A model generated the notes under the pieces. The model was not told the origin of the DNA. It made no database searches and saw nothing but the letters and a program-made list of their open reading frames with translations. Positions 2,023-40,862 of a stretch of DNA of 64,000 bases are shown here, in pieces. Within the stretch, counting starts at the first letter, position 1; every line of letters begins with the position of its first letter. The stretch covers positions 122,574-186,573 of the forward strand of contig LZME01000095.1 in NCBI GenBank assembly GCA_001673575.1, read 5' to 3'. Origin of the DNA: Mycolicibacter heraklionensis (GTDB lineage Bacteria; Actinomycetota; Actinomycetes; Mycobacteriales; Mycobacteriaceae). The position numbers and the translations under genes were made by a program.

Positions 2023-4209
2023 ATGAGTGACGGCGATAACGCCACTCCTGGCCGCTGGGCGCCGGAGGGCCACAATGACGGCGACCATCAGCTGATGACG
2101 ATGACACCGCCGGGACCCGCACCCTGGGAACGCTGGCAGAACTCATCTGAGGAAACCCCCGTCCCGCACCGACGAAACGCGTCCCGGCGCCGCAACGGGT
2201 CGGTGAGCGTCGCCGACCTGATCGCCAGGGTCAACGCCGAGCCTCCGCCTTCCGGTGGACGCAGCCAGCGCCGGGCCGCCTCAGCCCCGCCCGAGCGTCG
2301 CGAGGTGGCCGAGTTCGTCGAGACCATCGAGCCGGCGGAGCCCGACAGCGTATTTGAGGCATCCGAGCCCGAGGCTGAGTATTCGCCGCTCGAAGTCGCC
2401 GATGTATCGGCCCCGCTGCCCGACATCGCCGAAGTGGCCTACCCGTCGGAAGTGCCCGACCTCGACCGTATTCACGGCACCTCACTCGAGCCGGCCGACT
2501 CCCCCGACTGGGACGAGTTGGCACCCGCCACCGAGGTGCCGGATTTATACGGCGGTCCCGAGATGCTGCCGGCGCAGATCGACCCACCTCACCAGACACC
2601 GCCGACGGATGCCGAACCGGCCCCGCACGGGCCCCACCACCGGGCCAAACTCGCGGGCCGGGCGGTCGCGGCCATGATGGCGATCCTCGCCTTGGTGCTG
2701 ACCGGGTCGGCCTGGCAGTGGAGTTCGTCGAAAAACCGCAGCCTCAACCACGTCAGCGCATTGGACCCCGATTCGCACGACATTCTCGATGCGGCCGGCC
2801 AGTACGGCGACGAGAACTTCCTGATCGTCGGCGCGGACACCCGCGCCGGCGCCAACAGCGACATCGGCGCCGGCAGCACCGAGGACGCCGAGGGAGCTCG
2901 CTCCGACACAATCATGCTGGTCAACATCCCGGCGAACCGTAAACGCGTGGTGGTGGTGTCGTTCCCTCGCGACCTGGCGATCACCCCGATTCAGTGCGAG
3001 GCCTGGAACTCCGTGACCGGCGCCTACGGGCCGATCTACGACGAGGAAACGGGAACCTACAGCGACGACATCGTCTACACCGAGACGAAGCTGAACTCGA
3101 CCTACGCCTTCGGCGGGCCGAAGTGTCTGGTCAAGGAGATCCAGAAGCTGTCCGGACTGGCGATCAACCGGTTCATGGCCGTCGACTTCGTCGGATTCGG
3201 CAAGATGGTCGACGCGCTGGGCGGTGTGGAGGTGTGCACCCCCAGCCCGTTGTACGACCTCGTGCTGGGCAGCGTCCTCGAAGACACTGGACGCCAGCGA
3301 GTCAACGGCAGCACCGCGTTGAACTACGTGCGGGCCCGGCACGTCACCACCGAGGACAACGGCGACTACGGCCGCATCAAACGCCAGCAGCTGTTCTTGT
3401 CGTCGCTGCTGCGTTCGTTGATCTCCACGAACACCTTCTTCTCGCCGACCAAGCTCAACAACGTGGTCAACATGTTCATCGGCGACAGCTCGGTGGACAA
3501 CGTCACCACCAAAGACCTGGTGAACCTCGGCCAGTCGTTGCAGAAGGTCGCCGCCGGGCACATCACTTTCGTCACGGTGCCGACCAGTGAGACCGACGAG
3601 AACGGGGACGAGGTCCCCCGGATGGATGACGTGCGGGCACTGTTCGACGCCATCATCAACGACGACCCTCTGCCCGGCGAGAACGACCACAACGCCACCT
3701 CGGTACCGACCACGGCGGCGGCCAGCCCCACGACCCCGTCCACCTCTCTGCCCGGCGCACCGGCCACCCCGGTGGTCAAGCCGCTCAGCGAGCAGGTGCA
3801 CGCGGTCACGACCTCGCCCGGCGACGTCACGGTGCGGGTGTCTAACGCCACCGAACAGTCTGGCCTGGCCGGAGCCACCTCCGAAGGCCTGCAACAGTGG
3901 GGCTTCAACGTCGACAGCGCCGACGACTACCCCGGCACCGTCAAGGCCACCAAGGTGCTGTACTCCCCCGGAAACGAACAGGCCGCCGCCACAGTGTCCT
4001 CGGCGCTGTCAGGCGCGCCGATCGAACGGGTCAGCGGACTGGGCAGCATCGTCCGCGTCGTCCTGGGATCAGACTTCCGTACCGTGACCAAGCCGGTGGC
4101 CAGCGGCTCGCAGGTCAGCGTGCAACTCAACCGCGGTGCCAGCGTCGAACCTACCGAACTGCCCGATGACCTGACCGTCACCAACGCCGCCGACACCACC
4201 TGCGAGTAG
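2023..4209 (+). CDS. LytR-CpsA-Psr (LCP) family cell-wall ligase, Rv0822c-like
   Basis: 728 residues. LCP proteins transfer glycopolymers (in mycobacteria, arabinogalactan) from a lipid carrier to peptidoglycan on the outer face of the membrane. A long acidic, proline-rich cytoplasmic N-terminus (residues 1-208) precedes one membrane helix (about 212-232). The LCP domain follows from about 290, with SDTIMLVNIPANRKRVVVVSFPRDL and ALNYVRARHV; its arginines and acidic residues are the usual phosphate and metal ligands. A Ser/Thr/Pro linker leads to a LytR_C domain at about 605-690 (VTVRVSNATEQSGLAG). The ATG at 2023 follows a purine-rich TTGAGGAC. It is one of several LCP paralogues expected in mycobacteria, so the exact substrate is inferred. 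Confidence 0.9.
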   Translation: MSDGDNATPGRWAPEGHNDGDHQLMTMTPPGPAPWERWQNSSEETPVPHRRNASRRRNGSVSVADLIARVNAEPPPSGGRSQRRAASAPPERREVAEFVETIEPAEPDSVFEASEPEAEYSPLEVADVSAPLPDIAEVAYPSEVPDLDRIHGTSLEPADSPDWDELAPATEVPDLYGGPEMLPAQIDPPHQTPPTDAEPAPHGPHHRAKLAGRAVAAMMAILALVLTGSAWQWSSSKNRSLNHVSALDPDSHDILDAAGQYGDENFLIVGADTRAGANSDIGAGSTEDAEGARSDTIMLVNIPANRKRVVVVSFPRDLAITPIQCEAWNSVTGAYGPIYDEETGTYSDDIVYTETKLNSTYAFGGPKCLVKEIQKLSGLAINRFMAVDFVGFGKMVDALGGVEVCTPSPLYDLVLGSVLEDTGRQRVNGSTALNYVRARHVTTEDNGDYGRIKRQQLFLSSLLRSLISTNTFFSPTKLNNVVNMFIGDSSVDNVTTKDLVNLGQSLQKVAAGHITFVTVPTSETDENGDEVPRMDDVRALFDAIINDDPLPGENDHNATSVPTTAAASPTTPSTSLPGAPATPVVKPLSEQVHAVTTSPGDVTVRVSNATEQSGLAGATSEGLQQWGFNVDSADDYPGTVKATKVLYSPGNEQAAATVSSALSGAPIERVSGLGSIVRVVLGSDFRTVTKPVASGSQVSVQLNRGASVEPTELPDDLTVTNAADTTCE

Positions 4210-31986: not shown

Positions 31987-32841
31987 TCACCGGATGGGCT
32001 CGTCACCGAGCACCGTGGTGCGCAGCATTTCCCGGGGAGAATCCGGGTCATAGGGGGCGGCCCGATGCAGGACGCCACGGTTGTCCCAGATGACGGTGTC
32101 CCCCACCGACCAGTGGTGACGATAGACCCGATCGGCCACGGTGGCGCGCGCGAGTAGTTCGTCCAACAGGGCCCGCCCTTCCTGCAGATCCATGCCGACG
32201 ACGTAGTCGGCGGAGGCACCGAGCACCAGTGATCGGCGCCCGTTGCGGTGCGTCCAGACCAGGGGATGTTCATGGGTGGGCCGGGCCCGCCACCGGGCCA
32301 GATCTTCCGGGGATGGGTCGGGGGTGACCCGCCGCTGGGAAGCCTCCAGTGAGTGGACGACGCGCAGTGCGCCATAGCGTCGCTTCTCGTCGTCGGTGAG
32401 CAGGTCGTAGGCGGCGTACGAGCTGGCGAATTCGGTCTCCCCGCCGTGCTCTGCTACCTGCACCGCCGAGAGCACGGTGGCCTTCTGCGGGTATTCGTCG
32501 CCGGTCGGCGTGCACCCGTCGATGTGCCAGTCGAAGGTGGCGCGCAGGTAGCTCGCGGAGGAGTTCTTGGACCGGTTCAGCGTGACCGGGTAGATGCCCG
32601 CGACCTCGTGATGGCCGTCGGCGGAGTAGTCGACGCTGCCCAGCCGGCCGCAGAACGCAACCTGGGCGCGGGGGTCGATACGCAGGCCCCGGAAGACCAG
32701 AACGCCGTTGTCTTCCAACGCTTCGAGCACCGCGGCTCCCAGGTTCGCGTGATCCTCCGCGGCAGCTAGCTGCCGCGGGTCGACGCCGAGGACCTCGGCG
32801 CCGACTGAGGACGTCAGCTTGTTGATGGTGAGCAGACTCAT
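31987..32841 (-). CDS. TauD/TfdA-family alpha-ketoglutarate-dependent dioxygenase
   Basis: 284 residues from the ATG at 32839-32841, with AGAAAGG upstream. Non-haem Fe(II) ligands are the H-x-D pair in FDWHIDGC (H106, D108) and the distal His in RGVLHRAAPYDP; the Arg that binds 2-oxoglutarate is in EMLRTTVLGD. Family members hydroxylate or desulfonate taurine, alkyl sulfates, phenoxyacids or carnitine-like compounds using 2-oxoglutarate and O2. It lies in the SDR-Rieske operon, 41 bp after the small protein gene and 23 bp before the dehydrogenase pair. The substrate is unknown. Confidence 0.9.
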   Translation of the reverse strand: MSLLTINKLTSSVGAEVLGVDPRQLAAAEDHANLGAAVLEALEDNGVLVFRGLRIDPRAQVAFCGRLGSVDYSADGHHEVAGIYPVTLNRSKNSSASYLRATFDWHIDGCTPTGDEYPQKATVLSAVQVAEHGGETEFASSYAAYDLLTDDEKRRYGALRVVHSLEASQRRVTPDPSPEDLARWRARPTHEHPLVWTHRNGRRSLVLGASADYVVGMDLQEGRALLDELLARATVADRVYRHHWSVGDTVIWDNRGVLHRAAPYDPDSPREMLRTTVLGDEPIR

Positions 32842-32882
32842 CGGCCTGACCTTTCTCACAAGGGTTTTCGCGCTGTTGACCG

Positions 32883-33218
32883 CTACGGGATGGGCCAGCC
32901 GGTGCGGGTCATGACGGCGTCGGCGGCGTCGACGGGGGCGGGCTGGCCCATGATCTCCACTGCCATCGCCACCATCACCAGTGAATAGATCAGGTGCAGC
33001 AGGTGCAGCGCGTCCTCGGGAAGTTCATCCAGGGCGAACTTGTCGCAGTACTCGATCGCTACTTCCAACCGCGGAAAGAACGCGTCGTAGAATTGCCGCA
33101 GCTCACCGATGGTGCTGGACAGCCTCTGATTGAAACGTTCGGTTTCGGTTGGCAAGCACCAGGTTTCAGCGAAGCGCTCGAGCTCGGCGAAGGCGCTGGG
33201 TAGCCGTGGAGCAGTCAT
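32883..33218 (-). CDS. Small helical partner protein of the four-Cys oxygenase
   Basis: 111 residues, mostly predicted helical, no signal or metal motif recognised. Shared with the protein at 39193-39522: FxxLExFxxWCL, ERxxxRLxSS, FYDA, YCDKF(A/S)LD(E/D)LPED and LHLLHLIYS against LNLMHLLYS. It is too short and unlike the SnoaL-fold beta subunits of classical ring-hydroxylating dioxygenases. The ATG overlaps the oxygenase stop (ATGA). I infer that it is an assembly or regulatory partner of the oxygenase. Confidence 0.75.
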   Translation of the reverse strand: MTAPRLPSAFAELERFAETWCLPTETERFNQRLSSTIGELRQFYDAFFPRLEVAIEYCDKFALDELPEDALHLLHLIYSLVMVAMAVEIMGQPAPVDAADAVMTRTGWPIP

Positions 33219-34450
33219 TGTGCCGCTCCTAAGCCGGCGTGCGCGCGCCGGTAGTCGTCCACCCAGTCGGCGACCACCTTGTGCAGGTGCCGCACCAGGA
33301 TCTCCTGATCGTTGAGAGGGAAGTCGTCGACGATGCCGTATTCCAGCGCGGCCTGGGTGCCGCCGAGCATGCCGGCGTCTTGCAGCGCAAACTCTTTGAG
33401 CACCACCGACGCCACCTCGTGTTCGATGCGCTCGCGCACGGTGCGGGCCGGATGGAAGTAGGTGTGGGCCTCGAATCGGTGGGTGTTGTGCGAGGTGGGC
33501 CAGTACCGGTAGAGCAGGTACCAGCCGCCGTAGATGAGGATCTCGGTGTTGGGGAAGATCTGGAAGTTGCTGATCCCCCACGGTTCGATGCCGCCCGGAT
33601 TCAGCCCGGCGGGCAGCTTACCGATATCGGGCGTCTCCCAGGGGCCGACCAGCCCGCTGCGGGTGGCCCGCTCGATCGGGTACATGTACTCCGGTGGGAG
33701 CAGCCATCGCCGCCGCCCGGCTGTGGAGACCAATCGGTGCGGCCCGTCGATTTGGAAGTGGCCGCAGGTGAATCCGGCGCCGGGCACCCGGACTTGGGCC
33801 GGCACTTGCTGGGAATGCAGTGCCGGAACATGGTAGTACTCCTGGAACGCGTCGGCGAAGATCTTCCAGTTGCTGTTGTTGTGGGCCACCCAGTCATAGC
33901 GTTCGGTCAGCTTCTCAAACGGGTAGCCGTCGAGGCCGGTGATCATAGGGCCGAGGAATTCCCGCAGATTCTGACGCGGTTCCGTGTCGAGGTTGACGAA
34001 GATGAAGCCGTTCCAGATGTCGCAGTGCAGCGGCATCAGGGCCGCGGTGTCGGCACCGTCGAATTCGTACGTGCGGCGGCAGCGCTTGCAGGTGATCGCC
34101 TCGACTTGTCCGGCGGTCTCGCGGTCGGGATATTCGTGCCAGACGAGCTTGGTTCCGCAGCGCGGGCAGACGTTACCGAAGGCGCGGATTCCCTGGTCGG
34201 TGCGGACGAGAAGCACCGACGCCCGGGCCGCTTCGATCTCCTTGGTGGCATAACTGCCGTGTTCGGGAAGTTCCTCGACGCGCCCGATGTTGAGCCAAGC
34301 CCGTTTGAACACCGCTTCGCGTTCGAGTTCGAAGAACTCAGGGGATGTGGAGTCGACGAAAGAGATCGGGCCGGTGCCTAATTCCGGGTAGTGCTCGGTC
34401 CACGAGCCCGCTGCGGTCCGGCCGGATCGCACCGAAGGTTGTTCTGTCAC
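33215..34450 (-). CDS. Ring-hydroxylating oxygenase alpha-subunit homologue with four-Cys site replacing the Rieske motif
   Basis: 411 residues; the GTG start (34448-34450) overlaps the SDR stop. The fold matches the canonical Rieske oxygenase at 39529-40794 along its length (GSWTEHYPELGTGPISF; AWLNIGRVEELP). In the Rieske region, where the paralogue has C-x-H and C-x2-H, this protein has NVCPRCGTKLVW (C95, C98) and ITCKRCRRTYEF (C121, C124), and about 16 residues after it are missing. The mononuclear iron motif is intact: FQEYYHVPALH (E204, H207, H212). Four cysteines in CPxCG and CxxC knuckles resemble rubredoxin or zinc ribbons, so a [2Fe-2S] Rieske cluster is unlikely. Confidence 0.85.
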   Translation of the reverse strand: MTEQPSVRSGRTAAGSWTEHYPELGTGPISFVDSTSPEFFELEREAVFKRAWLNIGRVEELPEHGSYATKEIEAARASVLLVRTDQGIRAFGNVCPRCGTKLVWHEYPDRETAGQVEAITCKRCRRTYEFDGADTAALMPLHCDIWNGFIFVNLDTEPRQNLREFLGPMITGLDGYPFEKLTERYDWVAHNNSNWKIFADAFQEYYHVPALHSQQVPAQVRVPGAGFTCGHFQIDGPHRLVSTAGRRRWLLPPEYMYPIERATRSGLVGPWETPDIGKLPAGLNPGGIEPWGISNFQIFPNTEILIYGGWYLLYRYWPTSHNTHRFEAHTYFHPARTVRERIEHEVASVVLKEFALQDAGMLGGTQAALEYGIVDDFPLNDQEILVRHLHKVVADWVDDYRRAHAGLGAAQ

Positions 34451-35205
34451 AACACCGCCCCTCCGTTGACGCCGAGTACTTGACCGGTGATGAAACCGGC
34501 TTCCTCCGAGCACAAGAACCCGACCGCCGCGGCGATGTCCGCGCCGGTGCCCAGCCGGCCCATCGGGATGTTGGCCGCGATCTGCTCGTTCGGTGGTAGG
34601 TATCCGGCCGCTTGGCCTTGGTGCTGCATGGGCGTCTCGATGCCCGACGGCGGGATGTTGTTGACCGTGACGCCGTGGGCGGCATATTCGCGAGCCAGCG
34701 ATTTGGTCAGGGTGATGACCGCTCCCTTGGACGCGGCGTAGTGCGCCGCGAACGGTGATCCGCGCTGTGCGCTGGACGAGGAGATCATCACGATGCGCCC
34801 CCACCCGGCGGCGACCATGTCCGGCAGTGCGGCCTGGCAGCAGTGAAAGGTGCCGGTGAGGTTGACGTCGATGATCCGGGCCCAGGCCTCGGGCGTGATG
34901 TCGGCGAAGGCCGAGTAGCCGAAGAGTCCGGCGCTGGTGACCAGCGCCGCGACCGGGCCTAGTTCGCTGCGCACTCCTGTGAAGGCCTCGTCGACGGCGG
35001 CCCGATCGGTGACGTCGGCCTCGACGCCCAGCGCGGTCGCGCCCTGGCTCCGCACACCGTCGGCGACCCGCAGCGCCGCTTGGCCATTGACGTCGAGAAC
35101 GGCAATGCGATAGCCACGCCGGCCCAGTTCGTGGCAGGTGGCCTCGCCCATGCCCGAGCCTCCACCGGTGACCACGGCGACCCGCTGCGGCGCCTCTGTG
35201 GCCAT
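34447..35205 (-). CDS. Short-chain dehydrogenase/reductase
   Basis: 252 residues. NAD(P) binding TGGGSGMGEATCHELG (residues 14-29), LDVNGQ after beta-2, NLTG at about 123-126, the active-site S-Y-K in MISSSSAQRG and YAASKGAVITLTKSL, and the terminal VNGGAVL. It would oxidise or reduce a hydroxyl or keto group, plausibly the dihydrodiol or alcohol made by the oxygenase next to it. It is the first gene of the operon and overlaps the oxygenase start by four bases. Confidence 0.93.
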   Translation of the reverse strand: MATEAPQRVAVVTGGGSGMGEATCHELGRRGYRIAVLDVNGQAALRVADGVRSQGATALGVEADVTDRAAVDEAFTGVRSELGPVAALVTSAGLFGYSAFADITPEAWARIIDVNLTGTFHCCQAALPDMVAAGWGRIVMISSSSAQRGSPFAAHYAASKGAVITLTKSLAREYAAHGVTVNNIPPSGIETPMQHQGQAAGYLPPNEQIAANIPMGRLGTGADIAAAVGFLCSEEAGFITGQVLGVNGGAVL

Positions 35206-35922: not shown

Positions 35923-36020
35923 GGGGGAAATTGTCCCACAGAATCTGCGATACCCCTTGGCAGCCTAGATACCAGTGGGCATATTTTGCCGGGCTGGGCC
36001 ACCCCGGAAGGAGACCGCAC

Positions 36021-37163
36021 ATGAGTAGCGGCTTGTCGAGTCAGGTCGAATCCGTTCCCACCTCAAGCGGCCATGGAAGTGGCGGGCCCATCAAGGTATG
36101 GGCGACGGTCGGCGGAGCACTGCTGATGCTGCAGCTGTACGTGTGGAGCCGGTGGATCACCGGGCCCTTTTTCGAGCGTGTCCCCGGCGGGCCGAACGAT
36201 CCGCCGATGTACATGAAGGTGCCCCTGATGGCCAACGCCATCGTGCTCTGGGTCGGCCTGCCAGTGGCCGTGTGGTGGTTCTTCATCCGTCCGTGGCGCC
36301 GCGAACGCCGAATTACGTTGGACGGCTTGCTGTTTGTCTCGATGGGACTGATGTTCTTCCTGGATCCGCTGCTCAACTACTTCAACACCTGGTGCACCTA
36401 CAACACTTGGCTGTTCAACCGGGGTTCGTGGACATCGCATATCCCCGGCTGGGTCTCGCCTGAGGAGCCCGGCCGCCAGGTGGCCGAGCCGCTGCTGACG
36501 AACATCCCCGGGTACGCCTACGGCGTGCTGCTGATCACCATCGCAGGGTGCTGGATCATGGGAAAGATCAAGGCGCGCTGGCCCGCTATCAGCAACCTGC
36601 GCCTGATCGCGATCACCTACGCGATATCGTTCATCTTCGATTTCGTCATGGAGGGCTTGGTCCTGCTGCCGATCGGTTTCTACACCTACCCCGGCGCCAT
36701 CCGGTCGGTGTCGCTTCACGCCGACACCTACTACCAATGGCCCGTCTACGAGGGGCTGATGTGGGGCGCGGTCCAGGCGGCGCTGTGTTCGCTGCGCTTC
36801 TTCACCGACGAGCGCGGGCGCACCGTCGTCGAGCGCGGACTCGACCAGGTGCGAGGCGGCTTGGCCCGCCAGCAGTTCACCCGGTTCCTGGCGGTCTTCG
36901 CCGGCGTCAGCGCGTGCTTCTTCGTGCTCTACATGGTTCCGGCGCAATGGATCGCCCTGCACTCCGACCCGTGGCCGGCCGATCACCAGAAGCGGTCCTA
37001 CTTCACTGGCGGGATCTGCGGTGACGGCACCGACCGGCCCTGCCCGAATCCTGTTCTGCCACTGCCCACCAACCGCTCCGGCTACATCGACGTCGACGGT
37101 CACTTGGTGATGCCCGACGGAGTCGGCGTGCCACCCGTGGTGCCGTTCGAGCGCGGAGAGTGA
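36021..37163 (+). CDS. AveC-family (spirocyclase-like) membrane protein
   Basis: 380 residues with about seven membrane helices (near 26-48, 66-90, 102-118, 165-185, 196-220, 240-262 and 290-318). It resembles the AveC family, named for the avermectin spirocyclase/dehydratase of Streptomyces, which has several mycobacterial homologues of unknown function. The ATG at 36021 has GAAGGAG upstream. The stop overlaps the GTG of the P450 remnant (GTGA), so the two once formed an operon. Cyclisation of a polyketide-like or terpenoid substrate is only inference from the family name. Confidence 0.8.
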   Translation: MSSGLSSQVESVPTSSGHGSGGPIKVWATVGGALLMLQLYVWSRWITGPFFERVPGGPNDPPMYMKVPLMANAIVLWVGLPVAVWWFFIRPWRRERRITLDGLLFVSMGLMFFLDPLLNYFNTWCTYNTWLFNRGSWTSHIPGWVSPEEPGRQVAEPLLTNIPGYAYGVLLITIAGCWIMGKIKARWPAISNLRLIAITYAISFIFDFVMEGLVLLPIGFYTYPGAIRSVSLHADTYYQWPVYEGLMWGAVQAALCSLRFFTDERGRTVVERGLDQVRGGLARQQFTRFLAVFAGVSACFFVLYMVPAQWIALHSDPWPADHQKRSYFTGGICGDGTDRPCPNPVLPLPTNRSGYIDVDGHLVMPDGVGVPPVVPFERGE

Positions 37164-37462
37164 CGAACGCTGTGGCCGTCACCATCGCCCCGGACGTGTA
37201 CTACGACCCGGGGGACCTCGGACTCAACGCCGATCCCTATCCGATGTTCACGCGGCTGCGGGCCGAAGCACCGCTGTACTACAACGAAGTTCACGACTTC
37301 TATGCCGTGAGTCGGTTCGCGGACGTCAATCAGGCTCTGATCGACCACCAGACTTTCAGCTCAGCGCGCGGCGTGGTGTTGGAGATCGACGCGGCGATCT
37401 TCTCGTCCTCCTCAGCTGTCCGTGGCTGGGACACCATGCCCGCGCTGCTCAGAACTGGGTGA
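37160..37462 (+). pseudogene. Cytochrome P450 N-terminal remnant
   Basis: About 75 codons match the N-terminus of mycobacterial P450s: DPGDLGLNADPYPMFTRLR, EAPLYYNEVHDFYAVSRF, DVNQALIDHQTFSSARG. The sequence then becomes unrelated (about 37377) and ends at 37462. The I-helix, ExxR and haem-Cys regions, which make up over 75% of a P450, are missing from this locus. The MarR gene begins its stop only 8 bp later. I read this as a deletion relic; translation through the four-base overlap with the AveC gene is still possible. Confidence 0.75.
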
Positions 37463-37936: not shown

Positions 37937-39196
37937 TCAGCTGCGCTTGCAGACCCGGCCGTCCTTCATGACGAATCGCACGTCTCCGGTGGTGCTGATG
38001 TCCCGGGTCGGGTCACCCGGTACGGCGATGATATCGGCGCAGTAGCCCGGGGCCAGCCTGCCCAGCTCATGGGCGGCGTCGATGAGGTCGGCGCTGACGA
38101 GAGTCGCCGCCCGCAGTGCCTGCACCGGAGTCATGCCGCGCTCCACCAGGGCGCACAATTCTTTGGCGTTCTGGCCATGCGGGATTGCCGGCGCATCGGT
38201 GCCGCACGCGATGCGTACACCGGCCTCGATCGCCCGGGGCAGCATGGCCTTGGCACGCGGAAACACCTCGGCCGCCTTCTTGCGCAGCTCCGGAGCGATC
38301 CGGTCGACCGCCATGGCATCCGTCAAGTAGGTGGTGGAGACCAGGAAGGTGCCGTGGTCCACCATCATCGCCAGCGTTTCATCCGTGGCCAGGAAACCGT
38401 GCTCGATGCAGTCGATGCCGGCCCGGATGCATGCCCGAATCGCGGTGTCGCCGATGGCATGTGCGGCAACCCGCACCCCGGCCCGATGCGCCTCGTCGGC
38501 GATTGCGGCCAATTCGGCGTCGGAGTACTGCTGGGCACCCGGGGCGGTGCTGTGCGACATCACCCCGCCGGAGGCCGACACCTTGATCAGCTTGGCGCCG
38601 TGCCGGATCTGGTAGCGCACGCAGGCGATCACATCCGGCACACCATTGGCGATGCCCTCCGCAACCGACAGCGGCATCACACCGGGCGCGAGCCGTTGGA
38701 AGACCGTCGGATCCAGGTGGCCGCCGTAGGGCGTGACCGCGTGACCGGCGGGGTAGATCCGCGGACCCGCGTGCCAGCCCTGGTCGATCGCGCGCTGCAG
38801 CGCGACGTCAAGCAGGTAACCGCCGGTCTTGACCATCAGCCCCAGGTTGCGGACGGTGGTGAAGCCGGCTTCCAGTGTGGTTCGTGCGTTGACCGCGGCG
38901 CGCAATGTGCGGTAGGCGGGATCGTCCTGCACGCCGTGCAGCGGGGTGGGAAGCCCCTCTGGACCGCCCGGGCCGCCGATGAGCAGGTTGAGCTCCATGT
39001 CCATCAGCCCGGGCAGTAGCGTGGCGTCACCGAGGTCGATGTCGTCAGCCGAAACCGGAACGGGCGCCTCGGGATTGATGGCGGCGATCCGCCCATCCTC
39101 GACTACCACGACGGCGGGTGAGTGCACCACGCCGGCGTCGACGTCGAGCCACCGATCGGCGCGCACCACACACTTCTCACGCACCGGGCGGCTCAC
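37937..39196 (-). CDS. Amidohydrolase-superfamily protein lacking the HxH metal motif
   Basis: 419 residues; the GTG at 39194-39196 overlaps the preceding stop (GTGA), a better start than 39217. Composite-domain amidohydrolase similar to imidazolonepropionase and Xaa-Pro dipeptidase types: GDATLLPGLMDMELNLL, AKLIKVSASGG (K205), VAAHAIGD (H246), CIEHGFLA (H266) and ACGTDAP (D334). In functional members the strand-1 motif reads D-x-H-x-H; here it is D-M-E-L-N (E68, N70), so two metal ligands are gone while Lys, two His and Asp remain. It may be mononuclear, use another metal or no longer be hydrolytic. Confidence 0.85.
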   Translation of the reverse strand: MSRPVREKCVVRADRWLDVDAGVVHSPAVVVVEDGRIAAINPEAPVPVSADDIDLGDATLLPGLMDMELNLLIGGPGGPEGLPTPLHGVQDDPAYRTLRAAVNARTTLEAGFTTVRNLGLMVKTGGYLLDVALQRAIDQGWHAGPRIYPAGHAVTPYGGHLDPTVFQRLAPGVMPLSVAEGIANGVPDVIACVRYQIRHGAKLIKVSASGGVMSHSTAPGAQQYSDAELAAIADEAHRAGVRVAAHAIGDTAIRACIRAGIDCIEHGFLATDETLAMMVDHGTFLVSTTYLTDAMAVDRIAPELRKKAAEVFPRAKAMLPRAIEAGVRIACGTDAPAIPHGQNAKELCALVERGMTPVQALRAATLVSADLIDAAHELGRLAPGYCADIIAVPGDPTRDISTTGDVRFVMKDGRVCKRS

Positions 39197-39522
39197 GGGA
39201 ACGGCTCGGCGACGCACTCGATGACGGCCGCGCCCGAGTCCGGAACGCGCGGCTGCTTCCAGGCTTCGGCCGGGAATGCGACCGTGATCATGGAATACAA
39301 CAGGTGCATCAGGTTCAGCACATCCTCGGGCAGGTCGTCGAGGCTGAACTTGTCGCAGTAGGCCAGCGCCTCTTCGGCGCGTGCCGTGATGGCGTCATAG
39401 AACGCCTGCATGTCTGACATGGAACTGTTCAGGCGTTTGGCGTAGCGCTCTGGTTCAGATGACAGGCACCACTGGTTGAACGGTTCGAGATCGGCGAATT
39501 CCTTCGGCAGCATGGCGGTCAC
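39193..39522 (-). CDS. Small helical partner protein of the canonical Rieske oxygenase
   Basis: 109 residues from the GTG at 39520-39522, with a second possible start (ATG) at 39513. It is a paralogue of the protein at 32883-33218 (see its shared motifs) and lies in the same place, right after an oxygenase gene. Its stop overlaps the start of the amidohydrolase by four bases. It is helical, with an acidic and aromatic core. Function unknown. Confidence 0.75.
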   Translation of the reverse strand: MTAMLPKEFADLEPFNQWCLSSEPERYAKRLNSSMSDMQAFYDAITARAEEALAYCDKFSLDDLPEDVLNLMHLLYSMITVAFPAEAWKQPRVPDSGAAVIECVAEPFP

Positions 39523-39528
39523 GATCCC

Positions 39529-40794
39529 TCAGACCTCGGCCGTGGCGCGCTCGTGTTCGGCGATCCACGCGGCGGTCTCGGCGTGAAAGTGCCGGATCAG
39601 CACCTCTTGGTCGTTGAGCAGGAATCGGTCCACCACCCCGGTGCCGATCATCGTGTGGGTGGCCTCCAAGGTGCTGGCGTCCTGCAGCCCGTACTCCTTG
39701 AACGACACCGCCGCGAGTTCTTGGGCGACCCGCTCGCGCGGAGTCCGCGGCTGCGGAAAGTACAGCGTGCCTTCGAAAATGTGTGAGTCGTGCCCCGTCG
39801 GCCAGTAGTGGTAGGTCAGATACCAGCCCTGGCCCCAGAACAGGATTGTGAAGTTGGGGAAGATCTGGAACGAATCCAATCCCCACGGATCGCATTTCGC
39901 AGGATTGAGGCCATCGGGCATCGGGCCGATGTCTGGCGGGTTCCACGGCCCGAAAAGCCCGCTCTGGCAGATATCCTCGATCGGCTTGCGCATCTCGGAC
40001 GACATCTCCCAGGCCCTAACACCTGAGGTGCTCACCAGGCGGTGCGGGCCCTCGATCTGGTAGTGCGGCGCCTCGAAACCGGCCTGTTCGGCCGCCACCC
40101 GAAAGGCGGTCGGCGTCTGGTTCCCGTGCAGTACCGGGGCGTGATAGAACTCCTGGAACGCGTCGAGGAACAGCTTCCAGTTGGAGTTGACCGACGAGCG
40201 ATATTGCCATCGGGATGTCATCTGCCCGAATGGGTAGCCCTCCAACGCCGTAACCATGGGCCCGAGGAATTCGCGCAGCGATTGCTCCGGGGTGGCGGCG
40301 AAGTTGACGAAGATGAATCCTTCCCAGACGTCACAGTGCACGGCGACCAAGCCGTAGCGACTCTTGTCGAGATCGAAGAACTCTTCCTCCTGCTGAACGA
40401 AGGCCAGATTGCCATCCAAGTCGTAGCGCCAGGCGTGGTACTTGCAAGTGAACTGGCGGCAGGTCCCGCTGGCCTCCTCCAGCGGCATGGTGTCCCACAC
40501 CAGCTTGTTGCCTCGGTGCCGGCAGACGTTGTGATACGCCTTGATCTCACCAGATCCGTTTCGCACCAGGATGATCGAGGTGTTGACCACCTTGAGTTCC
40601 CGGGTGAAATAGCTACCTTTCCGCGGAACCTGCTCTACCCGACCGACATTCAGCCAGGCACGCCGGAAGATCGCCGCACGTTCCTTCTCGTAGACATCGG
40701 GACTGATGGAATCGCGGTACGACACCGGTTCGGTACCGAGCTCGGGATAGTGCTGGGTCCAACTGCCCTCGGGCGGCTTGGGAAAACGCGCCAC
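39529..40794 (-). CDS. Rieske ring-hydroxylating oxygenase alpha subunit
   Basis: 421 residues from the GTG at 40792-40794, with GGAG five bases upstream; a longer frame to 40812 lacks this site. The canonical Rieske ligands are HNVCRHRGNKLVW (C91, H93) and TCKYHAWRYDLDG (C117, H120). The catalytic iron motif is FQEFYHAPVLHGNQ, with Glu in the bridging carboxylate position, as in its four-Cys paralogue. Partner electron-transfer proteins are not encoded nearby. Expected chemistry is oxygen insertion into an aromatic, alicyclic or amine substrate. Confidence 0.92.
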   Translation of the reverse strand: MARFPKPPEGSWTQHYPELGTEPVSYRDSISPDVYEKERAAIFRRAWLNVGRVEQVPRKGSYFTRELKVVNTSIILVRNGSGEIKAYHNVCRHRGNKLVWDTMPLEEASGTCRQFTCKYHAWRYDLDGNLAFVQQEEEFFDLDKSRYGLVAVHCDVWEGFIFVNFAATPEQSLREFLGPMVTALEGYPFGQMTSRWQYRSSVNSNWKLFLDAFQEFYHAPVLHGNQTPTAFRVAAEQAGFEAPHYQIEGPHRLVSTSGVRAWEMSSEMRKPIEDICQSGLFGPWNPPDIGPMPDGLNPAKCDPWGLDSFQIFPNFTILFWGQGWYLTYHYWPTGHDSHIFEGTLYFPQPRTPRERVAQELAAVSFKEYGLQDASTLEATHTMIGTGVVDRFLLNDQEVLIRHFHAETAAWIAEHERATAEV

Positions 40795-40862
40795 AACCAC
40801 TCCTGTCCTCACGCCGGGTCACGAGTCTCGTTGGCGCCGACGCTATCGACCAGCACGGTCAG

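Follow-up and report, generated by a model that had tools for sequence, protein, structure and literature searches.

Rieske oxygenases are defined by a mechanism in which electrons pass between subunits, from a Rieske cluster to the active iron. Gene A (33215..34450, minus strand) lies in a stretch of 64,000 nucleotides from Mycolicibacter heraklionensis (GenBank assembly GCA_001673575.1, contig LZME01000095.1, positions 122,574 to 186,573; hereafter the window, whose numbering is used throughout) and encodes a homolog of the oxygenase alpha subunit with a conserved four-cysteine site on a Rieske-derived domain. The best relatives of its product in the Protein Data Bank (PDB), by profile (6e-30) and by fold search, are CntA (6Y8J, 6Y9C) and the group V Rieske oxygenases (GbcA, Stc2); CntA ranked first in the fold search at a template modeling (TM) score of about 0.5, which supports the family only. 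In CntA, a homotrimer, each iron is fed by the Rieske cluster of a neighboring subunit, and the bridging residue E205 is essential (PMC7948474, partial text). Both proteins have a two-domain layout and a bridging glutamate, but where CntA has a Rieske site A has four cysteines in a shortened domain, and it comes with a second alpha subunit, B, as its partner and with a small protein that has no family match.

Paired alpha-type subunits also occur in the caffeine N-demethylase NdmA/NdmB, which has been seen as an alpha3alpha'3 assembly (PMC12445004, partial text), the A/B pair being linked by co-occurrence and synteny. Among NdmC, NdmD and NdmE, NdmC is an oxygenase without a Rieske cluster of its own, served by one on another polypeptide (PMC4408171, partial text). 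There the oxygenase has no Rieske domain and the reductase bears it instead, whereas A keeps the domain with a rewritten metal site, and its likely donor is a sister alpha subunit.

The site itself resembles an engineered one. An archaeal Rieske ferredoxin (ARF) carrying H44I/K45C/H64C (Iwasaki et al. 2005, as cited in PMC2946596, partial text) held iron as mononuclear Fe(Cys)4, and the single mutant H64C gave a low-potential [2Fe-2S] cluster held by three cysteines and one histidine; in the available part of the same article a figure legend names a mononuclear Fe/Zn center, and the loops of the Rieske cluster are described as similar to those of rubredoxins and zinc ribbons. A is changed at the same three positions (first histidine to a non-ligand, next residue to cysteine, second histidine to cysteine), but ARF is a designed single-domain ferredoxin and A a natural protein with its site in an oxygenase and a deletion nearby. 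With rubredoxins and zinc ribbons A shares two knuckles of the form CxxC ... CxxC; it differs from them in that its site is Rieske-derived and stands beside a catalytic oxygenase domain, and no such family matches it above a curated cut-off. A literature search for a natural four-cysteine Rieske oxygenase, or for such paired subunits, found none, most subscription journals being beyond its reach.

A conserved four-cysteine site in gene A

Gene A is a 411-residue open frame with a GTG start at 34450, and its catalytic domain matches PF00848 (Ring_hydroxyl_A) at 171 bits against a cut-off of 24.9. The first knuckle, CPRC (C95 and C98; 34157..34168, minus strand), stands where canonical orthologs have CRHRG, and the second, CKRC (C121 and C124; 34079..34090, minus strand), where they have CKYH. 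An earlier sequence-only reading of this DNA had reported these cysteines in place of C-x-H ... C-x2-H, and the minus-strand codons from 34168 to 34079 (TGC CCG CGC TGC GGA ... TGC AAG CGC TGC) bear it out, with TGC at each of the four positions. The C-x-H ... C-x2-H set that holds the [2Fe-2S] cluster of Rieske oxygenase alpha subunits is absent from A, and because both histidines are lost a 2Cys-2His cluster is excluded, as that reading had argued. It had also described a retained catalytic-iron motif and a domain about 16 residues shorter after the second knuckle. Alignment upholds both: the bridging E204 is present together with H207 and H212 (33815-33841) and also D358 (33377-33379; whole span 33377..33841, minus strand), ligand roles being assigned by homology, and past the second knuckle A is 15 alignment columns shorter than the canonical ortholog of M. 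triplex (L045), or about 16 shorter than L009.

Full-length A gave no match to the Rieske profile PF00355 at E<=0.001 and is not one of the 17 Rieske-domain matches across the genome (4.7 Mb, 161 contigs). Taken in isolation, its former Rieske domain scores 22.4 bits against a cut-off of 20.3, and two other Mycolicibacter fragments fall below it at 17.1 and 19.4. The Rieske descent of the domain follows from the orthology of A to canonical A proteins, at about 71-81% identity. Paralogy instead of orthology is ruled out by the flanking genes, an SDR dehydrogenase on one side and a small protein (smallA) with a TauD-family dioxygenase on the other, which accompany A in all 39 loci where it was recognized, among 55 whose gene order was compared (the other 16 are more distant relatives).

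Orthologs were taken from the best 80 of 183 named loci encoding a relative, a sample in which more distant A proteins are under-represented. Ten of the 80 carry the four cysteines, 62 are canonical and 8 are otherwise altered. The ten comprise all nine named Mycolicibacter loci and 'Mycobacterium sp. UM_WGJ', whose A groups with Mycolicibacter in the tree, as does that of the window. Every cysteine is kept in 15 of 15 distinct four-cysteine sequences, all with intact reading frames, and each of the four codons varies silently (TGC/TGT) in at least one of them. Invariant positions in this set number 26 of 87 in the former Rieske region and 213 of 271 in the catalytic part; the chance that four given positions of the former Rieske region would all be invariant is roughly 0.008, a rough figure that ignores relatedness. 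The four cysteines of A are under selection. The sequence-only reading had asked whether four-cysteine homologs form a clade that always lies next to the small partner; they do mark a clade, that of Mycolicibacter, and smallA adjoins A in 39/39 of the compared loci where A was recognized. Sequencing error was rejected as very unlikely given 15 agreeing distinct sequences, which likewise show that the change is not the mutation of one strain.

The ratio of nonsynonymous to synonymous substitution rates (dN/dS), calculated on hand-picked sets, is 0.09-0.10 for the catalytic domain of four-cysteine A overall and 0.27-0.30 for the former Rieske domain. Across the same four species (6 pairs), A gives 0.303 for the former Rieske and 0.089 for the catalytic domain, and B gives 0.063 and 0.070. 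The corresponding values are 0.106 and 0.058 for canonical A from ten loci, 0.202 and 0.056 for A from eight loci with a three-cysteine site (CRRCC in the code given below), and 0.086 and 0.045 for B of those eight loci. It is thus chiefly the cluster domain that is loose in altered A. Decay of the whole gene, which the sequence-only reading had named as grounds for refutation, was rejected on the constraint of the catalytic part.

Ligand alteration across the A/B pair

Partner gene B (39529..40797, minus strand; its open frame would allow a start as far as 40812) encodes a Rieske oxygenase alpha subunit with an intact 2Cys-2His site, its knuckles reading CRHRG ... CKYHAW, and matches PF00355 at 56.1 bits and PF00848 at 113.6 bits. 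It lies about 5 kb from A and is a paralog 52% identical to it; by Pfam at E<=0.001 the catalytic domain is found in both and the Rieske domain in B only. A and B were extracted from the loci and, after removal of exact duplicates, of one A broken by a frameshift (L183) and of eight incomplete B (seven truncated at the edge of a locus and one piece of a frameshifted gene), yielded 153 distinct A and 116 distinct B. The state of each site was coded by five letters: first cysteine, first histidine position, next residue, second cysteine and second histidine position.

Rieske-ligand alteration is confined almost wholly to one member of this old, conserved pair of oxygenase subunits. Of the 153 distinct A, 116 are canonical and 37 lack the full 2Cys-2His set. 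Neither histidine is left in 28 of these (14 CRCCC, 1 CGCCC, 11 CRRCC and 2 CQRCC), and only the second is replaced in nine (6 CHRCC, 1 CHMCC and 2 CHRCS). B is canonical in 115 of 116 sequences, and a third paralog, C, in 70 of the 70 proteins read (30 from loci recovered by the search and 40 chosen among the further C listed). Both A and B could be read in 121 loci, some of them the same species from two collections: both are canonical in 96, A is altered with B canonical in 24, the reverse holds in one, and no locus has both altered. The glutamate, two histidines and aspartate of the active iron are kept in all 37 altered A rows. The four-cysteine A of Mycolicibacter therefore belongs to a broader set of changes to the Rieske ligands of this subunit, a larger finding than the sequence-only reading had stated.

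Among class-level, more distant actinobacterial relatives, which were read by eye outside these counts and include a few fragments or rows with an unread base, both members are canonical wherever both knuckles are readable. On this comparison the ancestor most likely had the canonical 2Cys-2His state. When a tree is built from the catalytic domain, with the site columns excluded, parsimony requires at least three changes between canonical and altered states; a tree with SDR, smallA and TauD added also requires three, and of the 21 altered rows that are not from Mycolicibacter it unites 16 in a supported clade separate from that genus.

Some individual sequences depart further. The second knuckle reads CxHC in several altered A (L094, L106, L111 and others), and the histidine two residues past the cysteine might there replace the lost ligand. 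In L183 (genome G045), from a species outside the four-cysteine clade, A (2553-3785, minus strand) carries a frameshift and a stop next to an intact B. The only altered B, with CRHHG ... CKQRAC, comes from L200/L205 (genome G260), where A is canonical; of 8 other genomes of that genus that were examined, none has the pair at the threshold used.

What the four cysteines may hold

Rubredoxin knuckles have the form CxxCG ... CPxCG. In four-cysteine A the first knuckle is CPRC[G/A], residue 99 varying between glycine and alanine, and the second is C[K/R]RC followed by arginine in 15 of 15 sequences. A thus has neither the rubredoxin knuckles nor a profile match to that family: among the matches listed at E<=5 for the isolated domain there was no rubredoxin model, though HMMER filters drop most such weak matches. 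Zn_ribbon_4 and other zinc-ribbon models match the domain only below their cut-offs, and the CxxC ... CxxC spacing fits them. The metal is probably Zn(II), possibly Fe, zinc being favored because the second knuckle has no rubredoxin-type glycine and continues with arginine. The naturally occurring CHRCC and CRCCC states of A use the same positions as the engineered ferredoxin mutants. From this analogy (PMC2946596, partial text) and the CxxC ... CxxC spacing, a mononuclear metal is favored over a four-cysteine [2Fe-2S], and the site is quite likely to hold a single metal rather than a cluster. The structure predicted for A has usable confidence mainly in the Rieske-like domain (residues 31-160, ten-residue means 70-89), where with fair confidence the model retains the strand order of a Rieske domain.

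A possible division of labor between A and B

We lean slightly toward an account in which A and B belong to one assembly, the cluster of A is dispensable, one metal occupies its site and the cluster of B supplies the electrons; that A is still catalytic and powered by B we regard as somewhat probable. A and B would be two alpha-type subunits of one Rieske oxygenase system. The Mycolicibacter A would have lost its [2Fe-2S] cluster, both histidines being gone and cysteines gained one position past the first histidine site and at the second, with a stretch of 15-16 residues deleted after the second knuckle. The CxxC ... CxxC site would bind one metal ion and hold the fold of the domain; the catalytic domain and its iron ligands are retained. 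Electrons would then pass from the Rieske cluster of B to the active iron of A across the subunit interface, via the bridging Glu204 of A, in a mixed A/B assembly; a homotrimer of four-cysteine A would be unable to receive electrons by the route of the family, and a mixed assembly with B could. The iron of B must receive electrons as well, and B-B contacts are one way in which it could. This account builds on the loss of ligands, the conservation of the four cysteines, the intact ligand set of B and the constraint on the catalytic domain of A, and it is from these that we infer the identity of the metal, the A/B assembly, the flow of electrons from B to A and continued catalysis by A.

A broader version, which we put forward as a tentative possibility, would extend to Mycobacteriales pairs in general. 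B would be the sole Rieske donor and A would keep only its oxygen-activating iron, the cluster site of A, freed from electron transfer, having drifted through 3Cys-1His and 3Cys states to a mononuclear Cys4 site in Mycolicibacter. Either subunit may give up its cluster, as hinted by the one genome in which B is altered and A intact.

Several observations weigh against these proposals. The link between A and B comes from co-occurrence and synteny, and the absence of doubly altered loci is not significant, about 0.2 being expected by chance. The altered B comes from one genome (G260). The nine A rows in which only the second histidine is changed may still hold a cluster, and CHRCC proteins in particular may do so by analogy with the mutants; the altered A tested from outside Mycolicibacter (L102, L111, L088, L105, L139) match the Pfam Rieske model at 34-53 bits. 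The Rieske domain of A is looser than that of B even where it is canonical: in eleven other canonical A its dN/dS is 0.168, the catalytic part giving 0.070. Some of the relaxation is therefore older than the loss of the cluster. Invariance of the iron ligands within the four-cysteine clade is weak evidence when taken alone, given 213/271 invariant catalytic positions there, and the catalytic domain of the A model is of low confidence, probably owing to the shallow structure-prediction alignments (30 and 20 rows), which would explain the poor catalytic domains. Alteration of A brings no relaxation of the catalytic domain of B (0.070 and 0.045, compared with 0.080), which makes a ring with the cluster of A as the only donor to B unlikely; there must be contacts between B subunits, or B trimers of their own. 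Finally, on a set of 35 altered rows and 32 canonical ones, 14 of which were a random draw, the approximately unbiased (AU) test fails to reject a single clade of all altered A (p 0.128 and 0.095), and the four-cysteine state could therefore have arisen separately or via a 3Cys-1His ancestor.

Other explanations differ in what they make of the catalytic domain of A and of its donor. A may be a non-catalytic structural or regulatory subunit of B, comparable to the beta subunit of an alpha3beta3 enzyme, with the four cysteines as a fold-stabilizing zinc knuckle and its iron idle. Such a role would suit the loss of the electron-transfer ligands and of the residues past the second knuckle; if two homotrimers were stacked as alpha3alpha'3, A would likewise have no donor, and the broken A beside an intact B in L183 (G045), outside the clade, points the same way. 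Yet the catalytic dN/dS of A in the CRRCC set (0.056) is close to the canonical value of 0.058, the four-cysteine set being slightly looser (0.089), and the bridging glutamate, both histidines and the aspartate survive in 37 of 37 altered A, so that we consider an idle subunit unlikely. Outright decay with incidental cysteines, suggested by the faster former Rieske region (dN/dS 0.27-0.30), is contradicted by the 15/15 intact frames, by cysteines that are invariant through silent codon changes and by the constrained catalytic part, and is improbable in the extreme.

The four cysteines might themselves hold a redox-active center (a rubredoxin-type Fe or a four-cysteine [2Fe-2S]) that still relays electrons at a changed potential. 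The first knuckle is CPxCG-like, the archaeal triple mutant took up iron as Fe(Cys)4, and other lineages of A keep the 3Cys-1His set that formed a low-potential [2Fe-2S] in the H64C mutant (PMC2946596, partial text). This relay is nonetheless rather improbable: as far as the available text of PMC12445004 describes, a ligand histidine of the Rieske cluster contacts the bridging acid of the neighboring subunit in this family, and A has lost both histidines. Its second knuckle, C[K/R]RC with arginine in 15/15, also lacks the rubredoxin glycine, residue 99 may be alanine, and the matches listed at E up to 5 held no rubredoxin model, with the same reservation about HMMER filters. A separate Rieske ferredoxin could feed A in place of B, as in NdmC/NdmD, and one of the 17 Rieske-domain matches in the genome (G000), at C95:83143-83448, does fall in an open frame of 130 aa that is possibly such a ferredoxin and a candidate donor. 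With about 72 kb between it and A, however, this frame is remote from the A/B gene group, and B with intact ligands travels with A in 38 of the 39 loci compared (a contig end truncates the other), which leaves a separate ferredoxin only a slim chance.

Gene neighborhood

All genes of the A and B groups lie on the minus strand. The SDR dehydrogenase gene upstream of A (34447..35205; PF13561/PF00106) has a stop that overlaps the GTG start of A (GTGA), and the start of smallA (32883..33215, 110 aa), directly after A, overlaps the A stop (TGATG). The TauD-family 2-oxoglutarate dioxygenase gene follows (31987..32859; PF02668), and the order SDR, A, smallA, TauD holds in 39/39 loci. Beside B lie smallB (39193..39522), whose 109-aa product is 46% identical to smallA, and an amidohydrolase gene (37937..39217; PF01979); B, smallB and the amidohydrolase are all present in 38 of the 39 A loci, the lone exception being the one cut by a contig end, and in one other genus (g23) all seven genes form a single run. 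The small proteins gave no Pfam or NCBIfam match at E<=0.001 and nothing better than E 0.19 against PDB sequences. The 16 more distant loci have varied subsets of these genes, mostly with at least two family members. Within the window's genus, by our own reading of the match table (best match below 1e-150), 86 of the 148 genomes drawn carry A, and all 86 hold at least three family members at E<=1e-100, that is, at least two besides A. About 8 kb of L198 (genome G387) contain three oxygenases of this family, each accompanied by its small partner gene, a layout that suggests repeated duplication of the unit of alpha subunit plus small protein.

Between the A and B groups of the window lies an AveC-like gene (35931-37163, plus strand; PF17198), found in this place in 8 of the 10 named four-cysteine loci and, in the other species compared, elsewhere or outside the locus. 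It is followed by a 100-aa frame (37160-37462, plus strand) whose match to cytochrome P450 models is limited to roughly their first 60 positions and which looks like a truncated P450 remnant; a MarR gene on the opposite strand ends just past it, and a piece 86% identical to it is present in L036.

Significance for the oxygenase family

The A proteins form a living series of 2Cys-2His, 3Cys-1His, 3Cys and 4Cys states, which are intermediates between a Rieske cluster and a rubredoxin- or zinc-type site on one Rieske scaffold; to our knowledge, such intermediate states on a Rieske scaffold are otherwise known only from mutants. If the proposed division of labor is true, the A/B system would be a natural pair in which one subunit is unable to transfer electrons while its active site is conserved, and would thereby offer a natural experiment for tracing each iron to the cluster that feeds it.
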